From positions 49,104,001 to 49,168,000 of the forward strand of contig OX485804.1 of the NCBI GenBank assembly GCA_950295325.1: a stretch of 64,000 bases of DNA. Reading direction: 5' to 3'. This DNA is from Polytrichum commune. Taxonomy: Eukaryota > Streptophyta > Polytrichopsida > Polytrichales > Polytrichaceae. Positions 3,678 to 62,235 of this stretch are shown here, piece by piece. Each line of letters opens with the position of its first letter. The stretch's first letter is position 1. The translations under genes were made by a program, and so were the position numbers. The notes beneath the pieces were generated by a model. The model was not told where the DNA came from. It was given only the letters and a program-made list of their open reading frames with translations, and did no database searches.

Positions 3678-5781
3678 GAGAGAGAGAAGAAACGTTGACC
3701 CCTGATGGGATCAACATGATTGAAATGCCCGTTCGACCCACCCTTGATATTATGTCCACTGGACATAATATCAGTGGTGCAGGACTACTAACCCCTCTCG
3801 GGGTGGGCACTATAGAAACTGGGGTGACCAAGTTGGCCATGTGTTGGTGCGGTTGTAGAGCTTGTAGGGGCAAAGGTTATAGTTTTGTGGGGTGGATGTT
3901 GAGTCATGGGCCTTCTATTAGTTTATTGTGATATCTTTTATTTATTGGTTGACTAGTGTTTTGGGAGTTCTTATGGTAGTTGTGTGTCAAGTGGTATTGG
4001 CTCGTTATTTTCTATCCTTCTTTTGTGCAGAATTATGGACATGTATAGCATATTGTATAGCGATGACATTAATTGCCTCAGATGTGTTCTTGATGCTCTG
4101 CTTAGGGGTTTTAAATGTTGTTTCAATGCTATCCATAGAGGGGATATGTGTGGCAGCCCTAGCGCCTGCAGTGATGACAATTAGTGGGTCTATTTTCCAA
4201 CCTTTGTTGGCAATATTATCCATTAATGGTTTATATTTCTTTATTTTACGGTTTATAGTTTCATCCGGTATTCTATCGTTACAGTATGTAAATTCAATGA
4301 ATTGTATTGTTAGGTTGTCATTAGGTTCTATTGGGGGTGAGGACTGATATGGTAGTCCTTTCACACATAAAAGATCTTGTTTGAATCTGGCATTGCAATG
4401 GCATCTTTGTTGGCCACATATACACGGTAATATCCATGAAGGGACCGTGTTTTCTGGGGGGTCGTTATTGAATGTTCATGTATTCATGAGAATATAACAT
4501 CTTGATTTTTTTGATGACACTATAAGTTTTCTTAATTCCCATACTGCTTTATTGTGTCTTTTGGTGCGGAGGGCATGAATGTGGTGTTGTTTGCATTTTA
4601 GAAGTACATGCAGCCATGTATCCGGGCATGTTGAGTCACATATAGGGCATGTGATTGATGGGAAAGCTTCTCTTCCGAATAACAGTTGTTTCCTGGCATT
4701 TCCCATGTATTGACCGTGTCTTAGTTTTAGAAGACATGTTTTTTGGGAGTCAGTTATGTTTTTGTTTGTCCAAAATTTATTTGATAGCTCATTATCTATT
4801 TTATCGTTGGCTATCCATTTATCTATGTTGGGGTATAATATAGGGATCGATTCTAAATTTATATTCTTATTGTACTTCACTAGATGTTTATCTAGGAATC
4901 TAATGGGTCCTTTGTCTGGGGTTGTTCCCATTGATGGCCATGTGTCTCTTTGGTAGAAGTACGGCGTTGAGTGGGCAAATTCGTGTGATTGAGAGGCATT
5001 GTAGTGTGCTTTTGATGTCCCTTCTTTTGCAAGTGTGTCGGCTTCTTCGTTACCTTTGATGTTTGCATGTGCTCTTACTTTGTATAGTGTTGTGGGTTGG
5101 GTTCTCTGTACAAGAAAGTTCACTATTTCTTCTAAGATAGTTTTATCGGGGTGGTTATTGTGTAGTGTGGGGTGTTTTATTTGGTTCTTGATTACATATA
5201 GGCCGTTAAGGCAGTCTGTGAAAATATGTGCCGGTTCATTTGGGAAGTCATTTTTTATTATTTTAAGGGTATGGTGAATGGCCATTAGTTCTACTCGAAA
5301 TATGTATTGTAGGTCTGGTAGTCATAGTGCAAGTTTGATATTTTTTTCTTGGTTATATATACCGTATCCAGCTTCTTCTCTCCACCAACTATCTCCTATT
5401 TTTTTGGGGGGGGGGGTTAAAGGATCCGTCTATGTAGAAGCAGTGTTTGGGGGGGAATTTAAGTGGTGTTTCGTTTTCATAGTTGGGAATTTGTGGGATT
5501 GTATTATGTAGGTGTGTGCTTGGAGTTGGGTAAGTGAGGGTGTTCCATGTTTTACATTTGTTGACTTCTAGATTTTGTGGGGTAGGGGGGGCAATTTGGG
5601 TGATTGTGCGAGATATGTTCAGATTGTTGCATATATTTCTTATTGTGTTCATTTGTTCTATATTGCCGATACTATTGTTTTGGTGATGGACGCATAGGAT
5701 TCTTATGGTGAGTGGTTCTATACGAGGCTCGTTGGATTCTTGTGGTCTTGTAGGTTCTTCATATTTGGTGGTGTCTGCTGG
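3678..5781 (-). mobile_element. 5'-truncated LINE with 13-bp target duplication
   Basis: A 2.1-kb non-LTR retrotransposon remnant on the minus strand. The 13-bp direct repeat TTGACAAACTCAA sits at both borders (3665-3677 and 5782-5794). The coding part retains the 3' half of an ORF2: RNase H, a CCHC zinc-binding segment and a C-terminal PD-(D/E)XK-like domain. The reverse transcriptase and N-terminal endonuclease are missing, as expected for 5' truncation during target-primed reverse transcription. The 3' terminus is a pyrimidine-rich run (ttcttctctctctc in LINE orientation), not a poly(A) tail. Confidence 0.85.
4003..5781 (-). pseudogene. LINE ORF2 3' half: RNase H, CCHC, restriction-like nuclease (broken)
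   Basis: Reading on the minus strand, the frame enters at the truncation point and reaches an RNase H start (FYIDGSFNPP near 5410). It then shifts frame at a G10-11 run (about 5404-5415), and continues with RVELMAIHHTL (catalytic Glu), HIFTDCLNGL (Asp) and HANIKGNEEADTLAKEG (His and Asp). Next comes CPICDSTCPDTWLH...C with a following RHN motif, the CCHC finger used by restriction-like-endonuclease LINEs. After one TGA (about 4476) the same frame runs on to 4003 through CICGQQRCHC, ARFKQD, QFIEFTYCND, KIKKYKPL and PLIVITAGARAATHIPSM. The spacing of D, E and K..KY fits a PD-(D/E)XK fold. One frameshift and one stop make it non-functional as it stands. Confidence 0.8.
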
Positions 5782-15994: not shown

Positions 15995-16640
15995 CGTTGG
16001 TGGGTGGCATGTACCTCTACTTTCCTCCTCTTTCTGCCATGACTAGTGGTCGTTTCAACTTTCCTTGGACTCATGTATAAAAGAGTGGCTGAAGTTTGAC
16101 TTGCGAGGTTGACAACTTTAAAGGTTGGCCCTGGATGGAAAGTGTGTTGGTATGACTGCGCTTGAGAGAGTTGGAGAGAATCACCTTCATTCTTTGGTGG
16201 CACATTCTCTAATTCCATCTCTTAAATTTGGCCTATTCGCTACAAAATTCTCTCGAGGGCTCTACTTGTGTCATTGCGAAGCAGCCACCAGAAAATTCTC
16301 CAACATCATGGTTGGTGGATGGCATGTACCTCTCTCTTTTTGCCATGACTAGTGGTCGTTCCAACTTTCTTTGGACTCATGTATGAAAGAGTGGCCGAAG
16401 TGTGGCTTTGTGAGGTTGACAACTTCAAAGGTCGACCCTGGATGGATAGAGTGTTGGTATGACTGCGCCTGAGAAAGTTGGAGAGAATCGCCTTCATTAT
16501 CTGGTGACACATTCTCCAATTCCATCTCTTAAATCGGCCTCTTCCCTACAAAATTCTCTCGAGGGCTTTACGTGTGCCGTTGCGAAGCAGCCACCCACCG
16601 GAAAGAAAAAAAATCCTCCGACATCATGGTTGGTGGATCG
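15995..16640. repeat. Two-unit tandem duplication, period about 305 bp
   Basis: The block from ggtggcatgtacctct through ctcgagggctctac is repeated once; for example ccatgactagtggtcgtt occurs at 16038 and 16343. A third start (gttggtggat, 16628) then diverges. Non-coding. Confidence 0.8.
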
Positions 16641-17037: not shown

Positions 17038-17266
17038 CAGTGATCGGGGAGATTTTTGGGCATAATCGGTTGACATCCTAGTGTTTGCAAGTCCAACCGG
17101 TTACATGTTGATGGCATCCTTGAGTTTTTCTATATTAATCTGAGGTATATTCCACAAATTCCTCTAAAGTGATTGGTAATTCTCCTTATGTCTTGAACTT
17201 CAACTGGTTATTTCTCAAACTCAACCGGTTCATCTATAACTAACTGCCGGTTCTCCCCGATCATAG
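17038..17266 (+). mobile_element. hAT-like MITE, copy 1
   Basis: A 229-bp element with ends CAGTGATCGGGGAG and CTCCCCGATCATAG, flanked by a perfect 8-bp duplication CCTCCCAC (17030-17037 and 17267-17274). CAGTG-type ends with 8-bp duplications are characteristic of hAT transposons. The interior carries repeated CCGGTT blocks. Non-coding. Confidence 0.85.
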
Positions 17267-17286
17267 CCTCCCACTCTCAACTAGTG

Positions 17287-17519
17287 CAGTGATTGAGGAG
17301 ATTTTTGGGCATAATCGGTTGAGATCCTAGCTAGTGTTTGCAAGTCCAACCGGTTACATGTTGACGACATCATTCGGTTTTCCTTTATTAAATTGAGGTA
17401 TATTCCACAGATTCCTCTAAAGTGATCGGTGATTCTCCTGAAGTCTTGAGCTTCAACCGGTTATTTCTCAAACTCAACCGGTTCATCTGTAGCCTACTGC
17501 CGGTTCTCCCTGATCATTG
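17287..17519 (+). mobile_element. hAT-like MITE, copy 2
   Basis: A 233-bp copy (CAGTGATTGAGGAG ... CTCCCTGATCATTG) flanked by AACTAGTG and AACTGGTG (7 of 8 bases match). It lies 20 bp downstream of copy 1 in the same orientation. Confidence 0.82.
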
Positions 17520-17525
17520 AACTGG

Positions 17526-17751
17526 TGTCTGGGGAGGTTTTAGGGCATCACCGGCCGAGATCCCAGTGTTGTCAAGTGCAACCGCTTACATGTGGACATC
17601 GGGCAAAATTTTATTTATATGTCGACATCAGTTGTCTTTATTGATTTCAGGTATATTCTCAAAATTCCTCTAAAACGATCGGACTCTTGGATGTCAGTCT
17701 CAACCGGTTCATCTGTGACTAGCGATCACTTCTCCCCGTGCAGTGCTCACG
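17526..17751 (+). mobile_element. hAT-like MITE, copy 3 (degraded)
   Basis: Immediately downstream of copy 2. It carries the same order of blocks (ggggaggttttagggcatca, ggtatattct, aaccggttcatctgtgac, cttctccccg) but has weak ends and no clear target duplication. Either it was duplicated together with copy 2 or its ends have decayed. Confidence 0.6.
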
Positions 17752-23370: not shown

Positions 23371-23691
23371 CACTTAAAAGGATATTCAATGTTTGGTACA
23401 CTAAATACGAACGCATACACTAAATGCCAATAACCCTATGAAAGTAAGTAACGTTAAATGTAAACTCAAACAGTAAACATCAACTATGGTACTATGTGGA
23501 AGTTACATGTTTAAATTCAATGTTAGTAGGGATGTGAAGTCCATGCTTCGCAGGAAGGGAGGTGGCAGTAGGGAAGGTAGCGACATATTTATGTTTAACA
23601 ATAATTGTCAAGGAATTGAAAATTAGTGTTGAGCAGGGTAGGGTGGTAACAACATTAAATATAATCAAACACTAAATATCCTTTTTTAGTG
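23371..23691 (-). mobile_element. TA-flanked MITE, short subfamily, copy 2
   Basis: A 321-bp element (CACTTAAAAGGATATTCAATG ... AAATATCCTTTTTTAGTG), TA at 23369-23370 and 23692-23693. It is the reverse complement of the 23957-24244 copy across its interior, for example aaccctatgaaagtaagtaa here and ttacttactttcatagggtt there. Confidence 0.77.
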
Positions 23692-23956
23692 TACTTATGC
23701 TTTTGGGTACTTTGATCCTACTCCGACTTGTTAGGCGACTTTCGTTTGGACAAGCACCTTCACTTTATACCATGCATGCTGGGAGTAGGGAACTTCTCCA
23801 CCACTGTAACTTCTTCTTCTTCTTCTTCTTTTTTAATTTTTTTAATTTTTAATGTTTTTTTTTTAATTTTTTAGTGGCACAACACTGCAACAACTTCAAA
23901 GTCCAACTTGCACCGATTGTGGCTGATATATATGCTGCCAAGAGCTACTGACACTA

Positions 23957-24244
23957 CACTAAATAGGATATTCAATGTTTTATTATATTTAGTGTTGTTA
24001 CCACCCTACCCTACTCAACACTAATTTTCAATTCCTTGACAATTAGTGTTAGACATAAGTGTGTTGTTACCTTTCCTACTGCCACCTCCCTTATTATATT
24101 CTTTTTTATATCCTTACTAACACTAAATTCAAAGATGTAGCTTTCATATATTACCAAAGTTGATATTTAGTGTTTGAGTTTACATCTAATGTTACTTACT
24201 TTCATAGGGTTATTGATATTTAGTGTATGCGTTCGTATTTAGTG
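23957..24244 (+). mobile_element. TA-flanked MITE, short subfamily, copy 3
   Basis: A 288-bp element (CACTAAATAGGATATTCAAT ... CGTATTTAGTG), TA at 23955-23956 and 24245-24246. Together with 23371-23691 it forms inverted arms of about 290 bp around a 265-bp spacer. Confidence 0.78.
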
Positions 24245-24246
24245 TA

Positions 24247-25640
24247 CCAATGTGAGGAAATTCTATCAGGTGGTGATGCCATTTAAATATTTGTTGACAC
24301 CATATGTCAAATTGCAACATGTCATGCTCCATCTACCGATCACAACAACCAATTAGTTGCTTCTTAGATCCAATGAGTTTTCAAGTCCAAATTATACATG
24401 ACATGCATCATACCTTGAGATACAATTCATACTTCGTATATATATCATTAATGTCACATATATTTGCATTTTGATTTTGATTTAATACACTTGGCTTAAG
24501 ATAATGTATTAAATAAAGTTTTTAAACCATGATCATAAATGAAGAGATGATTTTAAGACTTTGTGAGGGTCATAGACATTGTGTGCACATAGGCCGTAGG
24601 GTCAGGTCTATGATTTTTAAGGGTTCGGCAACCATTTTGTACTTGAGAGTTGGCTTTGAGATGAGAATGAAGAATGAACTTAAATTGCCAATCTCAATTG
24701 AAGGTTTGGTGTGAATGTTGAGGTACAAAAGTAATCCATCAACATGGAACAAGTAGGAGAACAATGCCTCATTCCTTTGATGTGATCAAGGCCATTGCAA
24801 CTCAGTACAAGAAAAGAAAAGAAAAGAAAAACTTTTAGGATTGATGAGAATGGAAGCCCATTTTTCTTATACTGACCATGGGTGTAGCTCAATACATATT
24901 CATATCTCTTACAATTCTTTGAATGGAATAAAAATAATGAGATTCATCATCATGATATTTAGAATCAACTTCATTATTACATTTGAAGACTTATGCATGC
25001 TTTCTTCCTCCCTCAGCAGTGGACGCATATCTTTTGAACATGATAGGGTTAACATGCTCATAATCATGTCAATGTAACCACGTATGTTCCCCCACACCCC
25101 CCTTTTCTTCTTCTTCTTCTTTTTCTCTACTGTATCAAATATAGGCAAGATGTTCAAGCATAAATTTCAAGATAGATCTTGATTATGAGAGAAATACACG
25201 AACTAATTCATTGTTCACAAGAGTTCAATGTTAAATGAAATCCATACCAATTAGTTCAAAACAATGTAAAAGCACCTAATATAATAAGACACTTTGAACA
25301 TGGGAGATCACATCCACCAACAAGATATCCAACTACTCGGGCTTAGGAACATTCTAAGCCACATTTCACACATATGGTCAAAATCCCGATGGAATCCTAT
25401 AGCCACATTTTAGGGTTGGGTGTTTGTGCGCTCGAGTGTGAGAGTGCATCTTACACATGACACACATTGCAAGGATTGTATATCCTCATAAATGCTCCAC
25501 AAGTGAGGCCTAGAGACTTATGGATGCATATTTTAGACCCCCTATCATCATTTTAGCACATTAGTTTAATATCGAAGAAACTACAAGAACAAGGATGGCA
25601 TTTATGCCCACATTTAAAAAATTGAAGCCATACTCAAAGA
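24247..25640. other. Gene-free stretch
   Basis: No gene recognised. Short CT/CTTT microsatellites lie near 24,810 and 25,103. Confidence 0.4.
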
Positions 25641-25739: not shown

Positions 25740-26280
25740 GAAGACGTAGCACCAACTATTCCAAATATTGTTGACATGTTGTGTTTTCATTGGACTTGAG
25801 CATGATGAATATAGACTATTTACAAGCGGTCTCACAACATAGTCAAAGTTATGTTTGATATCGTACATGTCTTGTCCTGTTATGGGATGTAGTAGGGTTT
25901 CTCTTGTACATTATGGGTACAATATATAATAAGTGGTGCTAACCATCCCAATTCTTGTTGATGTAAGATGAATATAGACCGTACCAAGTGGCATGCTAGG
26001 AGCAATAACATGATTCCTTGTGTACCTAACTCGTCGCACCCGTGACTTGGTGGGTAGCACAAGGACGTCTTGCTACAATCTGTAGCAGGGCTCTTTGTGT
26101 ACAATATCTAGTACACGGTGTTGAACACCCAAATTGCGTTGATATGTTATGTCTTCATTGGACGTGAACACAACGAACACAACCCATAACAAGTGACCCT
26201 GACGACATGGTCAATGTTGCGTTCGATATTATACACGTATTGCCTTGCTGGGGGTTGTACCAAGGCTCCTCATGTATGTA
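25740..26280. repeat. Degenerate tandem duplication, period about 375 bp
   Basis: The block tgttgacatgttgtgttttcattggac (25,765 region) recurs as gttgatatgttatgtcttcattggac (26,138 region). Both are followed by similar gtcaa-gttatg/gcgtt-gatat-acatg and cttgtacc/cttgtgtac motifs. The array is interrupted at its right by the element 26284-26704, beyond which another gtagca...tccttgtgtacaatatct block appears. Confidence 0.55.
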
Positions 26281-26283
26281 TAA

Positions 26284-26704
26284 GGTAGAAATACCATAAC
26301 CCGTGAACATAAGGTGATTCGCATTGAAGATATGGTCTTACAACCATGAGATAATTTTCCAAGATAGACAAGAAGATTTCATGAAGAATGCAAGTTGTTT
26401 CATATTTTTCTGTTCTATACAAAAAATGCTACAATTTTTCAAAGTGGAAAGTTGTCAAACCCCCTACTCGTTCACTAGATTTTCCCTACACCGAACACGG
26501 TAATCCGCATTTCCATACAAAACATCGCCTGAATCGGTAACCTCATGAGTACATTAAAACTGGACTCCCATTGGCTACACTAAGTGTACACGCATTGAAA
26601 TTGCTGCCTCGCCATGATCGGTCTCAGAAATGACACTTCACCATTATGACAACAGTCTAGTGTGCATGGGTAGAGGATGGTTAACCGGTTTGGGTATTTC
26701 TACC
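26284..26704 (-). mobile_element. GGTAGAAATACC inverted-repeat element, copy 2
   Basis: A 421-bp element, ends GGTAGAAATACCATAACCCG and CGGTTTGGGTATTTCTACC. It is the reverse complement of 10221-10640 along its length. It has inserted into the degenerate tandem repeat to its left and right. Confidence 0.77.
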
Positions 26705-27099: not shown

Positions 27100-28783
27100 A
27101 CCTCCTCCTCCATTTTCAAATTCTCCCTCGCTCCTCTCGCTCCTCTCTCTCTTTCTCTCTCTTTCGATGTATGGATCAGTCTGATACTCTACGTTTTCCA
27201 GTCCCCAACTTCCCATGCACCCCCTGCTGCCTGCCTGGTCTTACACACTACCTTTTCAAATTTTCAGTTTGCACGGTACCTTAGCCCAGATACTCTACTT
27301 TAGCCACCTACAGTGTAGCATTCTGTTGTGACTGTTGGAGCTCCTTGGAACTTGGAGCTTGGAGTAAGTTAGGCAAGCAACCTGCTTGTGAGCTCCTTGT
27401 AAGCATAGAATTGGGTGGGGTAGCTGTGAGAGATTGTAGATGCAGGCTTGTATGATAGCTAGCAGCTTGCAGCAGCTGCTGCTGTTTCTACAAAGTTACG
27501 TTAACCCTTTGAAGTTCAAATCTTGCAGTTCCTAGTCTTGTCACCGACATTGCACAAGTGATCTCTTCCTGTGGTTTGTGTAGCTTCTTTTGCCAAGTGG
27601 TTTGCAGCTTTGGAGGTTTATCTTGCAGAGTGGCAGGTCTTCACACTTTTGGTCGGGGTTTTATAACAGACCGACTATATCCTTCTTGATCCTTGTCAAA
27701 GTTTCCCTACATTTAGCCAAACACTTAAATAAAAACTCTGGAGCCGTGATCATCTTCACGCAGGCTGGATACAGTTGGACTCTGCTGGTGTGCTTCTGTG
27801 AGTTACATGTTTCAACTTGTAGCTGTAGTTTACTGGGTTTCGGAGCTGATCAATTTGGGCGGCGCTTTGCATTCCATTCCATTTCGGTGCACTCCTCTCT
27901 CTGTCTGTGCATTTGATACACGACCTGCTGTAGGTTCGGTAGCTCATGTAGGACAGGACCTGCCATCTGCTAATTTCTTCTACTCACACAAGACTTTTGA
28001 GAGCATTGTGACTCATCCTTGTGAGAACCTGGGGTTTCAAGAATATCTGAACTTCTGCTAAGTCTCTACATTATCCATAAATCCTCTGCATTTAAGGAGT
28101 TCGGAGCTGGTGGTGGCCGGGCGCTTGCTGTTCTGTAGGAGAGGTAAAATTCTAATCTTTCTTCCCAATGCAAGCTGCATACTCATAAAATGTAATCAAA
28201 AGCAAGGCTGTCGGTTTATGATGTACCCTCTGATTCTTTAGAGGTAATTATGTTGAAGCAATGGGTATTACGAAAATGTTTGTGTGACCCTCATATTGGA
28301 ACATATACCAAAGAAGCTTGGAGTAGTTGTCTAGATTTATTGTCTTTATTGTCATGGTGAGAGTTTTATGGTTGGCGCAATTTGAATCTGCAAACCTTTA
28401 ATAAAGAAATTTCTCCATTTCCCTGGAACCATTAGAAATTCCTTGCCAAGCTGTCCAATGGCACCATGGAATTCCAGTACTCATCCTGTGGAGATAAATT
28501 GAGCAAGCCTGCTCGCAACCAAGTTCTGGAACCTTTATCTTCATTTTCTTTAATTTCCACCTCCATGGTGTTGCCCTTATGTCACTTATGAAGTTTCTTT
28601 TGAGCGGCACCCATTATTGCTTGAATCAACAGACTGTAGATATAGTTTCTATTGGTGTTGACAGAATATTCAATGGCATGGTTATTGACAACAATTTTAA
28701 GAAACTTTGAATGTGCAACAGACAAGTGACCCTGATGCCCAATTTGTGCAGGGTGGTGACCACGGAGAAGTGGAGGGTGCATT
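27100..28783 (+). promoter_or_regulatory. Inferred promoter and 5'UTR of the IQD gene
   Basis: A CT-rich tract (tcctctctctctttctctct, about 27,140-27,165) like those near plant transcription starts is followed by unique DNA without long coding frames. A plausible 5'UTR intron runs from 28144 (donor gag/gtaaaattc) to 28751 (acceptor tttgtgcag/ggtgg), placing 32 nt of leader before the ATG at 28784. The start site is not determined. Confidence 0.4.
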
Positions 28784-31700
28784 ATGGGTGCATCCAGCAA
28801 ATTTTTCAAGACACTGGCGAACATGAAGAGGATGGTGAGGGCCAGTTCTGCAGAGAAAGATGAATCTGCAGTAAGTTTCATAATCACCAACACACGTAAC
28901 CAAGACAAGACGATATTGTAGGCTCACCATTTCAGTATAACAAAAGTTCAAACGCATGCAATTGTCAGTATTGCATATAATGTCAGAGGAGAAAAATTGT
29001 TGGTGATAAATCATATCCAAGGCATGCCTGGAAACAGGAAATCAAGAGCACAATTTCCCATAGAGCTTGAGAGAAGAGATAATTACTGTTAAGCTGAAGT
29101 TTGTCTGAGTAAAAAATTGCAGAGATCATGTACTTCTAAAATGTTTCCCCTAGGTAGACCTCCTTCCTTGTCCTTTCCACCGTTGTAGCTTGACCACTTA
29201 CAGTACAAGAAGGTTTTCAAACGCATACAATATCATTATTTCATGTCAGAGATAAGAGTTGTTTTTGGAAACAAGTCCACGGGATGCCTGGAAACAGGAA
29301 ATTAAGCGCACAATTTCCCCTTAGAGAGCTTAAGACTAGAGATATTACCGTTTACCCGAAGTTTGTGTGACTAGAAAATTGCAGAGATGGTGTATTTCTG
29401 AACTCCCTTGTTGCCATTTGCACCAATGGAGGTTCACCATTGACAATACTGCAAGAAAATATTCAAATGTACACAATATCACTATTGCATATGTCAGAGA
29501 TAGAGTTTTTATTGAAAATTTACAAGGGTGGCATGAAAACAGAAATGAAGAGCACAATGTACCCTAGAGCTTAAGACTACAGATGTTACAGACTGATTAT
29601 ACCATGAACTTTGTGTGACGATGAATTGCAGCGATAATGGATTCACAAACTGCATAGATCTCATGATAAACACTCCATTTCATTTGCACCAGACCTTTCT
29701 GTGCAAACTGTTCCAAGTCAAAGTTGTGTACATCCTGAAACTCCTTCAGGCTATTGCATTTGGTGAATTCAGAAACAATAAAATTATCTTCATTTTCTTA
29801 AGGATGTGTCCATGGGCATGTGGCATTTACAGAAAAAACCAGGGGGTGAGAAACACCGACGATGGGTGCTGTGGAAAACGTCAGCAGAAAACAACAACAA
29901 AGTGGAGGAATCAGCCAAGGAGGAGGAAGAGTACTTCAAAGACGTGAGGGAAGATCCGAAGTTGGCAATTGTAACAGAAAATGTGGAAAAAATTCTTATG
30001 CTTTCCTCCAGGCAGCGGTACAGGAATCTCCAGGAGTGGGGCGCTCTTCGCATCCAGACTGCTTTTCGTGCCTTTCTGGTAAGTAATCACCTTGTAATTC
30101 CTGGTTGACATACTCTAACTTCAATATAGTTAAGACTCAGTGACTCCCTAATTCATTCTAAGCAGTAAATATCAGGATTGAATGTCTGTACAAAGCCCAA
30201 TTCACTTATCAAAGTCATGACATGCGAGATTACAGTCATCGACATATCCATCATTATGGGACTATGTGTGGGTCATGCTCTGACTTCCATATGGCAATCA
30301 ACCATGGAACTACCTGCTTCAATCTTAGCAGTGATGATGACACTGAATTTTCTAATACCACCAAATGACTGATTGCCTGTACAAAGGCCATATGATCCTC
30401 CAAATCACTTTAAATAATCATGACATTTGAGATTACAGTCATTGACACATCTATTTTTGGGTTTATGTTTGGGTCATGCTTTGATTCAATATGGTAATGA
30501 ATCGTGTGACTTCCAGCTTCAATCTCAATAGTGATGAGGGCACTGAAATTCCTGATACCATCATATGTTTGACTGCCTGTACATAAGGCCATTTAATCCT
30601 CATAGTCACCTTATTTAACAGTATGGACATTTATACAGTTATTGACACATCCATCATTTTGGGTTTATGTGCAAATTCAGGCACGAAGGGCGTTGCGAGC
30701 ACTAAAAGGGCTGGTAAGACTTCAGGCACTGGTGAGGGGTCACACTGTGCGACGTCAAGCTGCCATAACTCTGAGGTGCATGCAAGCTTTAGTTCGTGTG
30801 CAGGCTCGAGTGCGGGCACGCCGCGTCCGCCAGTCATCCCAAGGCCAAGCCGTGCAACGCACTATCACTGAGCATCGGTGTCGAGAGGCTCTACTTCGAG
30901 AATCCGAGGTACAAAGATCTCTCAACTTTTCCTCCCATGATTTGTGGTGCTCATGTTCTTGAAAATCTGGAAATTCTCCTGCCTTACTCACAATATGCCC
31001 CAACGATGATCCAGAAGTAACCATGAACGTATGACTCTTTCTCTGGGTGAATGTCGATCCCATGTAGAGTCAATTCTCTATATGCAACGAATTCTGTAAC
31101 TCTGAACTCTTCCTCCCATGAATTGTGCTCATGTTCTTGGAAATCTGTAAATTTGTGCTGCCTTACACACAATATACCCCAACAGTGACCCAGAAGTAAC
31201 CATGAACACACTCTCTCTTCGGGTTGATGTTGATCTCATCAAGAGGCAACTCTCTGTATTATAAAACTGCAATTCAGAGGGCTAGATGACTTGGGTAGAA
31301 CACCTTCATTTCTACCTAGGAAGAGCATCGGGGGCTGTGTACGAGAGTCGAATCTGAATCATTCTTCTTCAACTAACAGGATGGCCACTCTCAGTGGGAT
31401 CTTGTTATTTGGACTTAGAAGCAGAAAGGATAAGAATACTGGAATTCTTTTAGTGTGTCAAACAAGTGTCACTTGTACAGAATCTTGCGACCGCCGCAAG
31501 TCTGCTTGTGATTAACTTGAGAAGTCAGAGCTTGAGAAATGGCCTGGGTTGGTTTGTATTGTGTAGCTTGGATGGTGTGCTAACTCGGGGACAGTTCAAG
31601 ACTTACAAGCAAAGCTACAACAGAAGCAAGAAGGCGTGATCAAGAGGGAGCGGGCGTTGGCATATGCAAGTAAATATCAGGTAAGGGCTGCCAGTCAATC

Positions 31701-34213
31701 CACACTTGGTATGACATAAATCATTCAAATTATGTAAGTTATTTTATTGTATGTTGCGCATCACTGGTAGATGAGTCCCAATTTGATATGGTATGGAAGT
31801 TCAACCTATGAATCGTTCTGGTTTGTTTCCTGAACAAATTTCGTAACTAAAGGAATCACAAGTTTAGGTTCGCATCATGGGGTTATATTGTTTGAGATTT
31901 ACCCCCAGAAGTCATGAGCCTTCGGTGGCTCATGTGGTTGTATGAACAATAAGCCTTCATTCAGATTAAGGAAGTCATTGCATGTCGCAAATCACTTCCC
32001 AGAAGATTATATCGAGGTTAAGATAGGCCGAAGATGGTGAGGAAGCTCATAGTGTGAATCGTTGTGATTTGTTTCCTGAACTGAAATTTCTGAAGGAAGT
32101 ACTAAGTTTAGGTTAGCAATGGGCCTTCATATTCGGTGGCCGTAGTTGAGCAGATTAGAGTCCATGGAATATAGTAACTTTCGCAAAGTAGCTATATGAT
32201 AGCATTTATTTAGATTATGTAAGTTATCGTATATTACAAATCCCTTCCTGGAAGGTACCCAGTTTAAGATGGTGAGGAAGTTCAAGGTGTGAATCGTTGT
32301 GGTTTGTTTCCTGAACTGAAATCTCTCAAGGAAGCACAAGTTTAGGCTAGCATCATGGGGTTATCATATTGTTTGAGTTTTATGTCCCAGCATTATCACT
32401 ATCTGGATCACTTTCTGGAAGAGTCCTCAATTTAAGATGGTGAGGAAGGTCACGGTGTGAATCCCTGCAAATCGTTTCCTGAACTAAAATCCCTGTTCGG
32501 AAGCATAAGTTTACGTTAGCATCAGTGGGTTATGTTGTTTGAGCTTTCTGCAATGAGCCTCCAATATCGGTGGCTATGGTGTGCATTTTAGAGTCCATTG
32601 AATGATAGCATCGTTCTTGTTTGCTTCTTGTTGCAGTGGAAAGGAGACACAGGATCTTCGCGGCTCCAGGTGTACTTCGACCACGAGCCTGAGAATCCTC
32701 ACTGGGGTTGGAGCTGGCTTGAGCGCTGGATGGCAGCACGGCCCTGGGAGAATCGTATGCTCGATCACAACAACAATGGCTTCTGCAAGGAACCTGAATC
32801 CTCCGCCTCCCACCATATCCTGCCACCGTCACTTGGGTCGACGCCTGAGAGCTTATATGAGGACAGCATTAGTATTCCACCCAAGGCCATGAAACTGAGC
32901 TGTAATGTCAATAGCGTTCGAGGCAGTGCTCTGAGCAGTGTGAAGGACATGAGCAGCGTGAACGGAAGTGTGCGAACTTCTCCCACCAAATCCACTACTC
33001 TACACTACAAGCAGCTGATCCACCAACGGAATTCACAGCCAACTCAGGTTTTCTTCAATTCTTTATATATGTTTCATAATTCTTATCCTCTCAACAAATT
33101 CAGTCCTGCTGCGAGGAGTGCAGAAAGATGAATCCAACGATGCCTTATTTGATGTGGTTGACATCAACATTCATCTTGGGGCTGCAATTAGCTCAGTAAT
33201 CTGATGAATCTAATGATACCGGCTTATTTGACATAGTTGACCTCCATATTCATCTTGGGCTGCAAGGAGCTCAATAAGATGTATCCCATGACACCAGCTT
33301 TTTTGACATGGTTGACCTCCATATTCATCTCCCATTCATCTTGGGCTTCAAAGACGTCAATAAGACGAATCTGATGATACCAGCTTATTTGACATGATTG
33401 ACCTCGATATTTATCTTGGGCCGGTGCATAGAGCTCAATAAGACGAATCTAATGAGACCAGCTTAATTTCACATAAATGACCTTCAGATTCATCTTGGGT
33501 TGCAAGGAGCTCAACAAGATGAATCTAATGACTCCGGCCTATTTCTCACCTCCATATTCATCTTTTAGTGCAATGAGCTACAACAGATAAATCCAATGAT
33601 GCCTTATTTGACATGGTTGACCTCTACATTCATCTTGGGCAATGGATACTAGATAGTAAAGGAATTATACTAAGGGACTTTTTGTTCTTCTGCACAGGCA
33701 CCAATGAATATGAACTTCCCGATATATTTCGACCAGGCGTCCGACGTAGCGTCCTCGACGGCGCGGTCTGTGCACGACCGAGCGGTGATGGCCGTCCTCG
33801 ATGGAAACATCCCCGGCGGCGGAAGTGGATCCGCCTCCGCCGCCGGGGGGGTGCGCAGGAGCTACATGGCCCCGACAAAGTCCGCGAACGCAAAGGTGCG
33901 ATCGCAGAGCACGCCGAAGCAGCGGCCGAGCTCCGCCACATCCGATGTCGTCGACTCATCTTCAGCATCAAAGCCCAAGAGGAAGCGGCTCTCCTTGCCC
34001 ATGAAGCCTTCCACCGGGCCGTTAACGAAAAGCCCGACACTGAAATACCCGGAATCCGGAGGGGTGACAATTAGCCCCACATTGTTGAAGCGAGATGCGT
34101 CACGAAACCAGTTGCCTCCCATCATCATGCGTTACGACCGGCCCGCCACCCGGAGCGGCGAGCTCAGCATGGCGAGCTCGTACAGTGACCTAATGCGGCG
34201 GCCATTCAGATGA
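28784..34213 (+). CDS. IQ67-domain calmodulin-binding protein (IQD family), six coding exons
   Basis: Exons 28784-28870, 29833-30078, 30681-30908, 31567-31680, 32637-33047 and 33698-34213, all joined in phase 0, give 533 residues. The start [17 protein letters not shown] is the usual IQD N-terminus. The IQ67 domain (about residues 100-166) begins IQTAFRAFL, is split by the family's conserved intron, and continues [20 protein letters not shown] and [15 protein letters not shown]. Further family marks are [18 protein letters not shown] and [10 protein letters not shown] (exon 4), [15 protein letters not shown] (residues 249-263) and the DUF4005 motif [16 protein letters not shown] (about 418-433). 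A KPKRKR stretch (454-459) could be a nuclear signal. Family members bind calmodulin and act as scaffolds at microtubules, membrane or nucleus. Splice sites are my assignment; every exon shows clear homology or splice consensus. All introns are unusual (see repeats). Confidence 0.9.
28880..29720 (+). repeat. Tandem repeat filling IQD intron 1, period about 245-260 bp
   Basis: Three to four decayed units inside intron 28871-29832. Anchor atgcctggaaacaggaaat occurs near 29024 and 29284, with a decayed form at 29528. Each is followed by agcacaatttccc, a gaagtttgtgtga-like block and aattgcagagat, and preceded by caaacgcatacaata and atgtcagag. The unit is not found elsewhere in the window. Confidence 0.8.
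30170..30680 (+). repeat. Tandem repeat filling IQD intron 2, period about 200 bp
   Basis: About two and a half units in intron 30079-30680. The anchor tacagtcat[c/t]gaca recurs at 30231, 30434 and 30634, with gattgcctgtacaaaggcc-like, gggtcatgct and aatct-agcagtgatgatgacactgaa blocks between. The last partial unit runs into the splice acceptor of the next exon. Confidence 0.85.
30915..31260 (+). repeat. Tandem repeat in IQD intron 3, period about 181 bp
   Basis: Two units in intron 30909-31566. cctcccatga at 30931 and 31112 is followed in both by gtgctcatgttcttg-aaatctg, cctta-cacaatat-ccccaac and ccagaagtaaccatgaac. Confidence 0.85.
31720..32560 (+). repeat. Tandem repeat filling IQD intron 4, period about 170-245 bp
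   Basis: Four units in intron 31681-32636. tttcctgaac occurs at 31826, 32072, 32307 and 32475. Each is followed by a[a/t]tttc/ctc, gga-gcacaagtttaggttagcatcatgggg and tattgtttgag. Units differ by internal indels. Confidence 0.85.
33120..33650 (+). repeat. Tandem repeat filling IQD intron 5, period about 75 bp
   Basis: About seven units in intron 33048-33697. attcatcttggg-type anchors recur roughly every 65-90 bp (near 33170, 33250, 33343, 33410, 33492, 33556, 33629), with gatgaatctaatgataccagcttatttgacat and gttgacctccat between them. Confidence 0.87.
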
Positions 34214-34239
34214 ATTTTGGTTGACATGGCAAGAATTTC

Positions 34240-34640
34240 AATTGGTAACACTAATTCTTCGATCGACACGTTTCCGAGCTTCAATATATGGTTGCGGTAA
34301 CTTCTGGTTACTTGGCCATTTTTGTGGGATTTGATGTTGATGGGATTTAATTAGAGTCTGTTGATGATCATGTGCATGGTATCAACCTCCGATGCCAACT
34401 TTAGACGGTTCTGGGAAAATCTGATTGCAGCAGTTATATATAGCACTTCTTCGATCGACATGGTTTCAGTGCTTTAATATGTGGTTGCGGTAACTTCTGG
34501 TTGCTTGGCCATTTTTGTGAGTTTTGGTGATCATTAGAAGTCAAAATAGTTTGTTGATGATGATCTGCATGGTCCCAACCTCTGGTGCCGAGAAATTATT
34601 AGCAGATCCTGTTTTAGTTTGTCGATGATGATCAGTGGAG
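34240..34640 (+). repeat. Tandem duplication just after the IQD stop codon, period about 200 bp
   Basis: The block cttcgatcgacacgtttccgag, then atatggttgcggtaacttct and ttggccatttttgtg, occurs at about 34,257 and again at about 34,448. It is followed in both copies by gttgatgat-atg-tgcatggt and caacctc. It lies in the probable 3'UTR or immediate downstream DNA. Confidence 0.75.
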
Positions 34641-34699
34641 CGTGGTTTCTCGCTCACCATGTACAGAAGTTCGATGTCTCATGAATGAAATGCTCTTCT

Positions 34700-36949
34700 A
34701 GGATTCAAAAAATTGTTGCTTTCAGTCCAGCACCTTGCGTCTTCCACTGATTCTGAATGTTCTCCTGAAAATCTGAAGTGTAAATGAGGTACTAAAAGTA
34801 AATTACATGCGTGTCTGCGATGCTTCGAAGGTGTAGACCAACTTATTGAAGAATTCAACTTTTGAGTTTCAAGCATTGTGTCATCAGTAAACCCTTCTCT
34901 GAACATGTCATAGGAATCTCTGAATCCACCATACAATGTTCAACCGCTGGAAATTTGGAAATTATCTTCTGCATTGAAATAGACAGGGCCGACAGTTTCC
35001 CACTCAAGGTACTTAGTAGGCATGTGGAATGTGAGTTTTTGGTCCTTGTACAAAGTGCTCCTGAATTCCATCCTTAACAGTATATTCTCGCAAACAAGTG
35101 TTGCGATCGAAACACACGATTGAATCAACGTTGATGACATCTGAGGGAATGAGCTTGTGGAATCTCACCAAGAGGGAGAGAACATGACTTAACATTACTC
35201 AGCGTGCAGCTCTCATGCTGTGAGCCCTCATAATATAACATTGGGATGTTCGAAAAGTTGCACAAGGAGAGTCGGTTTTAGACTGAACTCCTAACATCCT
35301 AGTGTTATTCTAGGGGCCCATGTCGTTAAGTGATGTTATGAAGGTCTCATGCAATTGGTTTTTTAATTTTTGTTTAGTATTAATATTGTTAGAACCCTTT
35401 GAATACAACTAGGTCCTTTTTTACATCGCTAGTTTGGGTATGTTTTCCTATCCTGACTGGTTGCATCTATGCATAAATTTTAATGTCCCATTGCATTCTA
35501 GCACCATCTGTTGAATAAGTCATGCCATCGGTTGACGATGGATGACCGTTTTGGAACCTTGAATCGGCGAGTGCATCAACATTATGTGTTGTTGCCATTC
35601 CAAAGTTTCAAAATGCATAGAAGACTAGTTTGGGCTTCTGCTATTTTGGCATATCGCACATGTGCATATAAAATAATGTTTTGGGCCATCCCCACATTGT
35701 CCGCTCAACATGCAACCATAGACAACCGATTGTTTTGAAAATTTGGAACTTTGGAATAACAATTGGGTCAACATCCATGAGCTTGTTGAATTGCTCAAAG
35801 TTCCAAAATGTATAGTAGAGTGGGCTGAGTACATCTTGTAACAAGTTGCGACTCTTGAACAAAAGTTTGATGTCTCATGAATGACATTTTATTTTAAGAT
35901 GTACATCAAATTTGCATTTTGGAGCAACAACTTGATTATACATGTTGGGTCTCTTATTGAAACTTGTTTCGTAAGTAGTAGTGCCCGTCTCCATGCTAAA
36001 GAGATTCAATAGAAGGATGCAAGCATGGTAAAGTGGATTGAAAAAATGCACCCTCTTCTAAAATATGTTTATCTTTTTTGAAATGATTTTGTCAACATAT
36101 ATTGCTTGGCTTTGTAATTCAATATGTTTTTTTTTAATGTTTATGATTTTTTTCCCACAAAGCTCAAAATTAGTATATGATTTTGCATCACTTTCACTTA
36201 TACCTTTGCAGGGATCAAGAGTTGTCCACTATACCGTGCCTTCACCTCGGAGATAAAACCTAGGATCCACAGTCTAATGAAAGGAAAGTATTTCATGACA
36301 CATGGCTCAAGTGCAAACTTAAGTTTGTCTAAGTGCAAAAGAGAAGCCATCTTGAAGAACATTGGTTTCATGTATGTGTGCATACAACTATTATCCATTT
36401 CTCACGCATCTCCATACTACAGTGAATAAAAGATTTGACAATTGTCTTTCATTCCTAAACATCTAAGTGTTGTAGTGACTAACAGTATATTATACACCCC
36501 CAAATTCTTAAAATCTCAAATCAGGTTGGTCAAAAGAATGTCGGAGGGCCCCTAAATAACCTTCCATGGTTTAGTTCAAAAATTATAAGGTCTCCTTGTC
36601 AAAATCGTGGGTTTCATTAATTTGTTTATTTTAGGTGCATAATTATGTGAGCCTAAGTTCAACATGCATTCAATTTACCAACGAGCCACGACCTACGCAC
36701 AATTGCTTTCAATGTGTGCATTGTTTGTTGCCCGATACAAAAAGTGTAGTAGGGCATGATCTCGTGGACAAACCACATCTACAAGTACTCGCTTCTAGAA
36801 GTCACGTACACATGTGTTGCCAAGTTTATTTAGCAAAGGGCCCACTCTAAAACAAATCCGGGAATCCCGACTTTTTGATTGTTTGTTGCAGAGTCTTGGA
36901 ATTATGGAGGAGGGTGGACGATGCATTAGCCCCACATGGGAAGCCTAAC
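34700..36949. other. Gene-free stretch downstream of the IQD gene
   Basis: No further gene is supported. Short frames lack domains and no element ends were found. Confidence 0.4.
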
Positions 36950-37531: not shown

Positions 37532-38165
37532 TTAAATAGTCCCCCAAAGTGCTCCACATTGGCAATTGGCTAAGCGGCTTCCTTTAAATCGCAAGTGGTC
37601 TCAATCCAAAACCATTTCCAACCCTCGTTGGGACCGAAATTTGCTTAGGGGCAAAGTACTTTCAATCCTCGGGTACCAACCCAGTGTAGGCTTTTGCTAA
37701 CATTTTTTGCCTAAAGCATATGTTGTTACAACAATAGTGTACAAAACGTGTAGAAGGCCATGTCCAAATCTTGTGTACAATTGCATTCCACATACATGAT
37801 TCTACAAGCCTTGGGCATGTTTGTTGCAAATTTTATGTAGGCAAAGGGGCATGTTTCTTTTGCCATGTCACTCAATCGTGAACTATGGAGGAGGATTAAA
37901 CCTTGCTTTCCCCTCAAGTGCTCAACGTTGGCACTTGGCTAAGCGCCGGCCACCTCATTGCAAATAGCCTCAATCCAAAACCATTTGGCAACCCACTTTG
38001 AGACCGAAAATTCGCTAAGGGGTCATGTGTCTTAGATTTCAATCTTCATGTACCACCTCGGTCTTAGTTTTTGGCAATTGATTACCATACACATTTTAGT
38101 CCGATGCCTCTTCCATGTGAAGGGCGGTAGATTACCCCTTCGTATGGAGGCGTAGAGGCCCTTAA

Positions 38166-39118: not shown

Positions 39119-39765
39119 TGCACTCCATGTAGGAATCCATGTAGACTTCCTTCATCCATGCGAGTTTCTTTGGGCTTTGTAGGCCTTCACCTTCTAAGTG
39201 TGAAGTGAACTTGGACGGTCTCGGTCTTTTCGACCAATGAGTGATCTTAGAATGCAATGATCACATGCCTTCAGTCTTGTGTGTGAAATGGTCCTCAATT
39301 CCCTCATCCATGCCAATTTCTTTGGGCTTCGTAGGCCTTCACCTTCTAAGTGTGAAGTGAACTTGGACGGTCTCGGCCTTTTCAACCAATGAGTGATCTT
39401 AGAATACAACAATGATCACAAGCCTTTAGTCTTGTGTGTGAAGTGGTCCTCAATTCCCTCATCCATGCCAATTTCTTTGGGCTTCGTAGGCCTTCACCTT
39501 CTAAGTGTGAAGTGAACTTGGACGGTCTCGGCCTTTTCAACCAATGAGTGATCTTAGAATACAACAATGATCACAAGCCTTTAGTCTTGTGTGTGAAGTG
39601 GTCCTCAATTCCCTCATCCATGCCAATTTCTTTGGGCTTCGTAGGCCTTCACCTTCTAAGTGTGAAGTGAACTTGGACGGTCTCGGCCTTTTCAACCAAT
39701 GAGTGATCTTAGAATACAACAATGATCACAGGCCTTCAGTCTTGTGTGTGAAGTGGTCCTCGATG
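39119..39765. repeat. 155-bp tandem array derived from a MITE end
   Basis: Four head-to-tail units of 155 bp; ccctcatcca begins units at 39301, 39456 and 39611, after a diverged first unit from about 39,147. Units 2-4 are nearly identical. The unit matches the terminal ~155 bp of the Harbinger-like MITE: the shared order is aatccatgtagactt, agtgtgaag-gaacttgga, ccttttcaaccaatgag, tgatcac and cttgtgtgtgaagtgg. Each unit thus contains one inverted-repeat end. Confidence 0.88.
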
Positions 39766-58838: not shown

Positions 58839-59089
58839 CCTGCTTGTCGGATGTATATGATCGTGCTCTAGCTGACTTTCGGGTGCATCAAGGCATTTTT
58901 AGAAGACAAAAAAGGGGAGATACATACGTATGGGTATCTGAGAGAGTTCCAAGGCGATTGTTAGGGTTAACTTAGCACCCCAGTTTGTTTCTGCTGTGTT
59001 GCGAAAGGATTCATATTTGGTTGGAGCTTCGGCACAGAAATTCGGGATTTGCCTCCCTTCTGTTTGCAGTACGTAGAGGTTTGGTGAAG

Positions 59090-60664
59090 ATGCAGAGGTC
59101 TGGGAGCGGGGGAATGAACTTGAGTATGGAGGATAATTTCGAACCTACTACGCAATGTAGTACACCTGTTCCGCGTGCGGCGAAAGGTGTCATCTCCGTA
59201 GACGTAGGTCCACGGGTGTACACTGACGTCGACCTGAAACTGAAGAATGGGAGCAAGGAGTACTCGCCTGTGCAGAAGACGTCGAAGCCACCCGCACGGC
59301 AGGCGGTGTCCCGCATTCATGCCATCCCGTTCTTGATGCTCGTCGTCTTCGTCCTGCTGTGGGCGGGATCCACCTCGGGTACTACTGCCACATTCATTCC
59401 TCCACCAATTCAAGTCCATGTTCTTCTCCTCAGTTTCCTTACTGTAGCTATTTTTTTTCGCTGCTGGTGATTGATGCATTGCAATTCTTTGAAGCAACTC
59501 CTCTCATTCTGAACAGTTGTTTTAACGTCACTTCCGATGCTCTTACTGATGATCATTCGTCATTTCACAAAGAGCCAGAGCAACATGATGATGCTTGGAA
59601 TGAGGGAGGAAATGGAGGGGAATCCATTGATAACACTTGTGTGTCTGAATTAGAAAAGGCTTGCACTTTCAAATGTTGACGATGAACTTCTTCGAAGCAA
59701 TTGTCCAAGCTCATTGGAAACTGTTTGCTGTTGATTGTTGCATTCCAAGTGTCGAAGAAACTCCTCCCATTCAGAACAGTTGTGTCAACATCACTTCCAA
59801 TGCTCCTACTGATGATTTGTTGTTTCACAAAGAGTCTGATCAGTAACATGATGTTTGTAAAGAGGGAGGGCATGGAGACGAATCCATTGATACCATTTGT
59901 GTCTGAACTTGAAAAGGTTTACACCCTCAAACGTTGATGATGAATCACTTAGAAACGATTGTCCAAGTTTTTCTTCTAGTAATCTCCTCATTGAAACTGT
60001 TTGCTGCTGATTTTTGCATTGCAATTGTCGAGGCACCTCCTCCCGTTCCGAACAGTCGTTTCCAAAACCACTTCCGATGCTGCTACTGATGATTTTATCA
60101 TACATGATGATGCTTGGAAAAAGGGGAGGCCATGGGAGAGGAATAGGTTGATACCAATTGTATCTGGATTAGAAAAGGTTTATTTCAAATGTTAATTATG
60201 TTCTTAGAACTACTTCGAAGCGATTTTTCGAAAGCAGGGATCATCATAGTCCAGGCCCATCAGAACTTTTAGTTCAAAATACGAATATGACAAGAGAGCA
60301 CGTTTAAGAATATATTGCTTCTTTTTAAATAATGTTTTAGAGGAATTGCAGTGGAATTGACGAATCCACTCCTCATCAACTCCCCATCTTCTAATTTTGT
60401 GCTCTACACTGTGTTTGGGAAATGATTGCAGAAGTGAAGCCAAATGTGGAGTCTACGGGAGCTGTCACAGGTGCTACAGAAACCCATGCCCACCGTGTTG
60501 CTACCAGAGGACTACCTATACAGAAAAGCACATTCGGAGCTAAGGTAACCAAAATCAAAATGCCTACAGATCTTAAAAAAGATTCTCTCAAGAAAGACAA
60601 GGATTCAGTCCACATGAAGGACAAGCTCCTTCGAGGCGGGATGCCGAAGGTTCATAGTCCGTGA
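59090..60664 (+). CDS. Single-pass membrane protein of unknown function, two exons
   Basis: Exons 59090-59378 and 60432-60664 (phase-1 junction, donor TCGG/gtactac, acceptor gattgcag) give 173 residues. The N-terminal 75 residues are polar (start MQRSGSGGMNLSMEDN). Residues about 78-93 (HAIPFLMLVVFVLLWAG) form one membrane helix preceded by Arg/Lys, suggesting a cytosolic N-terminus. The C-terminal tail ends with a Lys-rich segment (KMPTDLKKDSLKKDKDS). I do not recognise the family. The 1.05-kb intron is almost entirely three tandem units. An alternative middle exon in the first unit (acceptor ctttgaag before 59495) would also be in phase, so the model may be incomplete. Confidence 0.5.
59461..60240 (+). 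repeat. Three tandem units (266-276 bp) in the membrane-protein gene intron
   Basis: Units start at 59461, 59727 and 60003 (gctg-tgattgttgcattgcaa). Each contains actcctccc-ttc-gaacagt, cacttccgatgctcctactgatgat, ggagg-aatccattgataccatttgtgtctga and gaaaaggtt. Unit 1 holds an open phase-compatible frame; units 2 and 3 are progressively broken by stops and a shift. Confidence 0.88.
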
Positions 60665-60699
60665 AGAACGAGGAGGATATCCAAGTATCACAATGTGAC

Positions 60700-62163
60700 A
60701 ATGTGATACTTTTGTGTGAATTAGCGTTACAGAAAGTAGCAATGTAGAATGAGATGTATATGAAGAGTCAGGATACTCCTTGTTGGATATTTGCCGTCGA
60801 ACAAATGTATCTGAAAAGAAGAGACAATAGGATCATCACAAGTAGAGCGAATTAGAGTGCCTTCATGAAGTCCAGGAATTACAGGTATGTCACACTCTGC
60901 GACCGACTCTCTTGAACTTTGAACTTAACCCCTTGGGTTTGGTTTGTTCCAAAGCAGCAAACTCTTGAGAGGTATGGCATATGATTCCTTATAATATATG
61001 CAAGAATGTCAGATTATCGATTACCTTGCGAATAATCCTTACGCATATATCATGCCTCTCAAGCAGATTATCTCGCAGATGTCCTTACAACCTAACCTCC
61101 AAGTAATGGAATAAAGGAGATGATTAATTCTGTACTACTCTTTGCTGAGCCAGCAATCACTTTCTTCCGAGAAAATTTCCTGTAAGTACGGTGGATCTTG
61201 AATGTTATAGCAAGTTGAATGTTTTGACCGAATTACATCTCAAGGTTCATCTTCCAAGATTTCAAATGATCTTCCATATAAAAATCTCAATGCTCGACCC
61301 GATTGTATCCAATCTTTATGTATGTTCATATGGTGGTAGCTCTGATGAATATAACATCGCTCTGAATGATGTACATGGAAAATTGTCACGAATAATTTTC
61401 TGTTCAAAACTCTCTTCCAAAATTACGATGTGTCGTTTACAACACCGCCATTCAAATTCTACTGCCTAAATATGCTGATCTAACACTTGTTTTTCACATT
61501 GTCACATTGTTCAACAACAACTATGTTGCATGGAGATTTTACAGTGGTGAGGACTGGAATAGAAAGCTCCTCATTACATATCACATCACAGTACAGACTG
61601 TATTGGCAACTACCCTGAAGATTGATTGGCGGCTTGAGCAGTTACTTCCATGTCTCTTGACTCCCTCTATAAAATTGCGGTGAATAAGGAAACCATTCAT
61701 TTTGGAAAGTGGGTTTTGTTTTGTTCTCATGACAATGATTTATCGAACTCACCGGATTCTCAGCCATCCGCTACAATGATAACGCTTTCATTGCTGGATC
61801 TCATGAGAATTGGATGCCACATACTCCTAAAAAATGAATAATACTTTTCTCACACCATCATAATTTATTCAAATTTCCCAGAAGTCGCAACAGTTGTCGT
61901 GGCGAAAGCCTTTAAATTTAGAATACATAAAGACTCAAAAGGAGGTTTATGCTACTGGGACATTGCAAATAGATGAAACTTAGGAGATAACACCTACGGC
62001 TTTCAGCAAGCTCAATCCTAGGGTCGTATTCAGTTTGTTAAGTAATGTAGACCCCCCTCTTCTAGCATCACTTCAGTAGGTGCTCGGATGGCCACTACTG
62101 CTCGCTCCTGGCTGTGGATGGTTGGGAGTTCGATCCCCGGCGGCGACACTAAGTGTAAGAATT
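60700..62163. other. Gene-free stretch
   Basis: No further exon is supported. Frames at 61191-61469 and 61650-61841 lack motifs. Probably 3' flanking DNA. Confidence 0.35.
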
Positions 62164-62235
62164 GGAGGTATAGCTCAGTGGTAGAGCAATCGGCTGCAGT
62201 CCGATAGGTCAGCGGTTCAACCCCGCTTGCCTCCT
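62164..62235 (+). tRNA. tRNA-Cys (anticodon GCA)
   Basis: A complete cloverleaf: acceptor GGAGGTA pairs with TGCCTCC, D arm GCTCAGTGGTAGAGC, anticodon stem ATCGG/CCGAT around loop CTGCAGT (anticodon GCA), T arm AGCGG-TTCAACC-CCGCT. The base at position 73 is T, the known identity base for tRNA-Cys. It has no intron and is followed at once by a T5 RNA polymerase III terminator (62235-62239). It appears functional. Confidence 0.95.

Follow-up and report, generated by a model that had tools for sequence, protein, structure and literature searches.

An IQD-type gene of Polytrichum commune with a separate tandem array in each of its five coding introns, one of them containing MITE-like sequence

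Results

The window analysed here is a stretch of 64,000 nucleotides of the Polytrichum commune genome, at 49.10–49.17 Mb of contig C2. Seven contigs of 42–78 Mb make up nearly all of the 408-Mb genome, which suggests seven chromosomes. On its forward strand the window carries an IQD-type gene (28784–34213) for which translation and paralogs give six coding exons (28784–28870, 29803–30078, 30681–30908, 31567–31680, 32637–33047 and 33698–34213) and a predicted protein of 543 amino acids. Exon boundaries and splicing were predicted from reading frame, GT/AG sites and paralogs. All five introns (932, 602, 658, 956 and 650 bp, in order) are in phase 0, and the length of every exon is divisible by three.

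The predicted protein has a C-terminal DUF4005 domain (Pfam PF13178; E = 1.4 × 10−9, 38.8 bits against a cut-off of 22.1), as many members of the IQD family do. The Pfam scan returned no other family and reported no IQ motif; from the amino-acid sequence we read an IQ67 region. In the IQD family this region is described as split by a conserved phase-0 intron (codon 16/17; PMC1368998). Intron 2 of the present gene, after amino acid 121, is in phase 0, lies within the IQ-like region and has a counterpart in five paralogs (L001–L005), its position at codon level being approximate. According to the same source, most IQD genes have introns in phase 0, and six members from rice have one in phase 1 towards the 3′ end (PMC1368998).

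Other features of the window are an open frame with an RNase H domain on the reverse strand (4476–5321; PF00075, E = 1.3 × 10−9), which probably derives from a LINE-like element, an inverted repeat (23393–24250) with arms of about 300 bp that are 85% identical and spaced by about 260 bp, and a tRNA-Cys (GCA) gene (62164–62235). Two SNF2-domain matches of equal length and score (C2:48901631–48902518 and C2:49000273–49001160) lie about 99 kb apart, 100–200 kb upstream of the window, and are possibly a recent duplication.

A preliminary description of the locus had claimed that each coding intron of the IQD gene is built from its own tandem repeat and had proposed Tandem Repeats Finder (TRF) as a check. 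TRF alone reported arrays in introns 2 and 5 and missed those of introns 1, 3 and 4, which are too diverged for it, and we therefore compared 28001–35200 with itself by gapped BLAST. Direct repeats were found within each of the five introns (best E between 1 × 10−68 and 1 × 10−34), at scores of 94–173 that none of 100 dinucleotide shuffles per intron reached (largest shuffle score, 20); each intron holds head-to-tail copies beyond chance, that is, a tandem array. With unit lengths that depend on where we cut the units, and all on the forward strand, intron 1 has three units of 267, 244 and 238 bp that are 67–78% identical (28916–29664); intron 2 has full units of 203 and 191 bp and a partial one of 81 bp, with a period of about 200 bp and 71–78% identity (30178–30671); intron 3 has two units of 181 and 161 bp with a period of 181 bp, 80–83% identical (30919–31259); intron 4 has four units of 246, 232, 168 and 192 bp, 54–69% identical over whole units and up to 80% across shorter stretches (31710–32616); and intron 5 has seven units of 69–83 bp with a period of 75 bp (33095–33640).

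Much of the preliminary description survived this comparison. The five families are mutually unrelated, no repeat pair joining two different introns at E ≤ 10−3; no array overlaps an exon. The periods (about 240–267, 200, 181, 170–246 and 75 bp) come near to those first given (250, 200, 181, 170–245 and 75 bp). The arrays do fill most of introns 1, 2, 4 and 5 (80, 82, 95 and 84%), but intron 3 only to 52%, and the last partial unit of intron 2, which had been said to run straight into the 3′ splice site, stops 9 bases before exon 3.

Because the units of the intron arrays differ by 17–46%, an assembly artefact is very unlikely as their source. Introns that arise by tandem duplication of exon sequence would resemble the neighbouring exon, with a duplicated AGGT; the self-comparison gave no intron–exon pair at E ≤ 10−3, and such an origin was rejected. 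Reduced arithmetically to one unit per array, introns 2–4 shrink from 602, 658 and 956 bp to about 311, 498 and 289 bp, inside the rough range that alignment ends give for the same introns in seven IQD paralogs (about 130–930 bp, mostly 160–600 bp). For the DNA of introns 1, 2 and 3, no other match in the genome was found among the scored candidates, in a search that scores only the best candidates and skips very common words, so that a lack of matches is not proof of uniqueness. An origin of the intron arrays through local duplication is supported. The earlier claim that this took place instead of transposon insertion is not supported: intron 5 is largely a dispersed MITE-like element. Intron 4, too, has a dispersed match elsewhere.

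An 86-bp piece of one intron 4 unit (32267–32352, forward strand) recurs, 94–95% identical, in a young dispersed repeat of which five copies were compared (L016–L020). Four of these are 96.7–99.3% identical to each other across about 2 kb; in the fifth, L017, the match to the others covers about 1.1 kb and 0.2 kb flanking an interruption. As the piece is 94–95% identical in the repeat and only 75–84% identical in the other intron 4 units, the comparison suggests that the young mobile repeat took it from intron 4 after the array had formed.

Introns 2–4 share their positions with paralog introns, most clearly in L001–L004, and intron 1 has a counterpart in the same four paralogs at an approximate position. 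Intron 5 (33048–33697, forward strand, phase 0) is different: in L001–L004 the frame is uninterrupted at its location, and L005–L007 have in this region a predicted intron in phase 1 instead, which fits the 3′ phase-1 intron of the six rice members (PMC1368998). With no such intron in four paralogs and one of another phase in the remaining three, intron 5 is most simply a gain in this gene.

The DNA of intron 5 has ten relatives elsewhere in the genome (L021–L030), which belong to one old dispersed family. We fetched 20 further copies, and an alignment of 23 copies yielded a profile and the consensus of an element of about 420 bp with terminal inverted repeats, ending in CCCCGGGGCGGCAACA and TGTTGCtgCCCCGGGG. 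Matches to it in the genome number at least 41, the query's own place included, with the best 40 of 177 candidates scored. The element behind intron 5 is short, multicopy and bounded by terminal inverted repeats, three properties of a MITE. A search of intron 5 with the profile (nhmmer) gave seven matches (best E = 1.5 × 10−17, weakest 7.6 × 10−6), the first at 33064–33179 and six more that reach 33651 and are confined to profile positions 162–246. By these matches, intron 5 consists largely of MITE sequence: the MITE-derived part (33064–33651, forward strand) corresponds to profile positions 118–246, with positions of about 164–235 repeated seven times. Units 2–6 carry a 3-bp insertion that is missing from the two outermost units and from the MITE, the pattern expected if the inner units multiplied later by unequal exchange. 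The tandem 75-bp unit was found in none of the ten element copies L021–L030. In the other approximately 262 kb of sampled sequence the profile found no copy, which makes the family sparse.

The idea that insertion of the MITE gave rise to intron 5 and supplied its splice sites is our inference. Neither the profile search nor a comparison of ends recognised the element's ends around intron 5. Homology between the end of exon 5 and the left end of the MITE found no support, as 158 of 1,000 shuffles and 566 of 2,000 genomic segments scored at least as high; with that homology unsupported, the look-alike CAACTnAG/GTTTT common to exon 5 and the element copy L025 is only suggestive.

The copy in L025 interrupts an open frame. 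The frame is open on either side of the copy, the two exon matches lying 376 bp apart, and joining GGGCAACTGAG directly to GAGTTGCC, at splice-like sites within both element ends, keeps the frame. In a paralog on contig C3 the frame is continuous across the site, in one alignment of 43% identity. By our reading, L027 is a second frame-compatible case; the genome search found no paralog of that gene. Candidate MITE introns number two or three among 11 places (L021–L030 and intron 5), the flanks of the 20 further copies being too short to judge. Open frames around the copies showed no clear enrichment, most of the ten loci lying within the background range, with L025, L027, L030 and one antisense run of L026 above the 95% point of the background. 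A weak Pfam match of L021 to a viral glycoprotein fell below the cut-off and was taken as chance. Given the L025 case, more than one intron may derive from this family.

To place the intron arrays in context, we detected arrays in all samples by the same method (E ≤ 10−6, period up to 700 bp). Between 25.76 and 39.76 kb of the window, a stretch of 14 kb, there are ten arrays, five of them intronic and the others flanking the gene, and none of the ten overlaps an exon of the IQD gene. The flanking arrays, on the forward strand, lie at 25761–26299 (period 368 bp, 68% identical; the left edge of the cluster), just past the stop codon at 34255–34589 (192 bp, 81%; non-intronic), at 35429–35819 (196 bp, 61%; E = 9 × 10−7, near the threshold), at 37540–38073 (369 bp, 72–77%) and, at the right edge, at 39147–39764, where four units of about 152–155 bp are 96–97% identical. 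This last, young array is the best spot to look for length polymorphism. Divergence between neighbouring units spans about 3% (the array at 39147) to about 42% (intron 4).

The remaining ~50 kb of the window hold seven arrays, and 20 kb beyond the window ends hold one. Among the seven window arrays outside the cluster, two lie close together and away from the gene (15996–16638, 315 bp × 2, 84% identical; 17038–17738, about 250 bp × 3, 75%). A 264-bp × 3 array at 59414–60225 apparently lies in the first intron of a second gene (59000–60700), whose predicted model has a first exon to about 59403 and a later exon from about 60431.

Random 10-kb pieces of the genome, which are unannotated, contain nine arrays per 90 kb, with six of the nine pieces hit (about one array per 10 kb). 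These are of the same kind, 59–88% identical, and no comparable hotspot occurs among the pieces. Against this background the gene has five arrays where 0.54 are expected (Poisson P = 2.5 × 10−4) and its flanks within the cluster five where 0.86 are expected (P = 0.002). Outside the cluster the window shows no enrichment (7 arrays, with 5.0 expected; P = 0.24). All three tests are post hoc, and the P values overstate the case because the gene was picked for standing out. The intron-by-intron process put forward in the preliminary description is not supported by these data: the random pieces have similar arrays at about one per 10 kb, and the cluster reaches beyond the gene on either side.

As control genes we took 40 loci, hand-picked from search lists for several adjacent exon matches: 20 kinesin exon clusters (of about 30, a rough count) and 20 SNF2 loci, 106 kb in total. 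No array was found in these 106 kb at E ≤ 10−6. At a looser threshold (E ≤ 10−4, 40 bp), none of 88 exon-to-exon gaps held an array; 30 of the gaps are at least 500 bp long, a gap between exon matches may span several introns, and in one kinesin case (L047, 103 bp) the matches that border the gap overlap. The sole repeat pair in the control loci at this threshold sits at the edge of L039, outside the gaps. With an array in every one of its five introns, the IQD gene is a real outlier, though it was picked for looking odd.

The seven IQD paralogs contain two arrays in all, both in the closest paralog, L001; by our reading of its exons, one would lie within intron 4 and the other upstream of the start codon. 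L002–L007 have none. The L006 locus has two inverted repeat pairs (4.5% of its bases) and no direct array. In exon 3 the present gene and L001 differ at 25 of 40 four-fold sites, so the arrays probably postdate the split from this paralog.

Discussion

On balance, we favour the reading that the gene lies in a local duplication hotspot of about 14 kb, and that intron 5 came from a MITE followed by internal amplification. Within the hotspot (25.8–39.8 kb), segments of about 75–370 bp would have undergone repeated local duplication, begun by replication slippage or template switching and continued by unequal exchange, and selection against disrupted coding sequence probably keeps the exons free of arrays. 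As the arrays differ in divergence, a persistent tendency to duplicate would be at work, not a single burst. In the case of intron 5, a new intron specific to this gene would have formed from the MITE-like element, and an internal segment of about 75 bp would then have been amplified about sevenfold. Several observations weigh against parts of this reading. Five arrays in 3.8 kb of intron are dense even for a hotspot, and we identified no DNA feature that accounts for one; arrays in L001 and not in L002–L007 would fit a tendency of the gene lineage in place of one of location; and, for an intron made by the MITE, exon 5 has no significant match to the MITE end.

The alternative that survives best is chance: arrays may be common throughout the genome, with this gene the extreme of a random scatter, noticed for standing out. 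The background of nine arrays of the same kind per 90 kb agrees with it, and many windows and genes could have been examined. We nevertheless regard it as unlikely, given that none of the 88 control gaps has an array, 30 of them being 500 bp or longer, and that the gene's flanks are enriched too. Closer to the preliminary description, the sequence or transcription of this gene lineage might promote duplication specifically inside introns, as the arrays in all five introns would suggest, together with L001, whose two arrays we place in intron 4 and ahead of the start codon, when L002–L007 have none. The five arrays of the same kind outside the gene in the same 14 kb, their presence in random pieces and the array-free introns of the control genes make this quite improbable. 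A further reading, in which an old transposon inserted in each intron and its internal repeats form the array, is largely true of intron 5, although the compared element copies lack the tandem unit, and tandem repeats derived from MITEs are known (PMC9659126), but we give it very little credence overall, as introns 1–3 had no other match among the scored genome candidates and intron 4 had a single dispersed match, of 86 bp, whose nesting fits capture from the intron.

The cases of L025 and L027 raise a bolder idea, resting on two or three places: the MITE family could be Introner-like, its landings in exons being spliced out through the inverted ends. It would then have made intron 5, the L025 intron and perhaps that of L027, and the new introns would grow by tandem duplication. 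We consider this possible but less likely than not. Should repeated intron formation by the MITE be borne out, land plants would have such a case, where the survey PMC9860276 reports no Introners, and Introner-like elements could be tested in the laboratory in land plants. More generally, this gene would have two routes to intron sequence side by side, a small transposon and local tandem duplication, with paralogs of the same genome serving as controls for both.

In a literature search over titles and abstracts, no description came up of a gene whose introns each have an array of their own, which is a weak negative. Minisatellite-like tandem arrays arise by local duplication. The present arrays resemble minisatellites in being head-to-tail and local, with few, diverged units, and are here confined to non-coding DNA; they differ in their longer units (75–370 bp), in having only two to seven copies, and in that each of five introns of a single gene has an independent family. 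Tandem repeats have been reported to arise inside MITEs (PMC9659126), and intron 5 is alike in that part of a non-autonomous element of about 400 bp was amplified in tandem; in contrast to the MITE-born satellites described there, this happened at a single intronic site, none of L021–L030 having the tandem unit. Mechanisms of intron gain described in PMC3443670 include transposon insertion and tandem duplication. With the first, intron 5 shares element sequence that forms a gene-specific intron absent from paralogs, but its element is old, truncated and then tandemly amplified; with the second, the gene shares the pairing of tandem duplication and introns, but no unit here is exon-like at E ≤ 10−3. 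Introners, reported among animals and land plants from only two groups, both of them animals (PMC9860276), likewise include non-autonomous DNA elements with inverted ends, and the ends of the L025 copy hold splice-like sequences; here, however, there are two or three candidate introns, and most of the MITE copies seen are not demonstrated introns.
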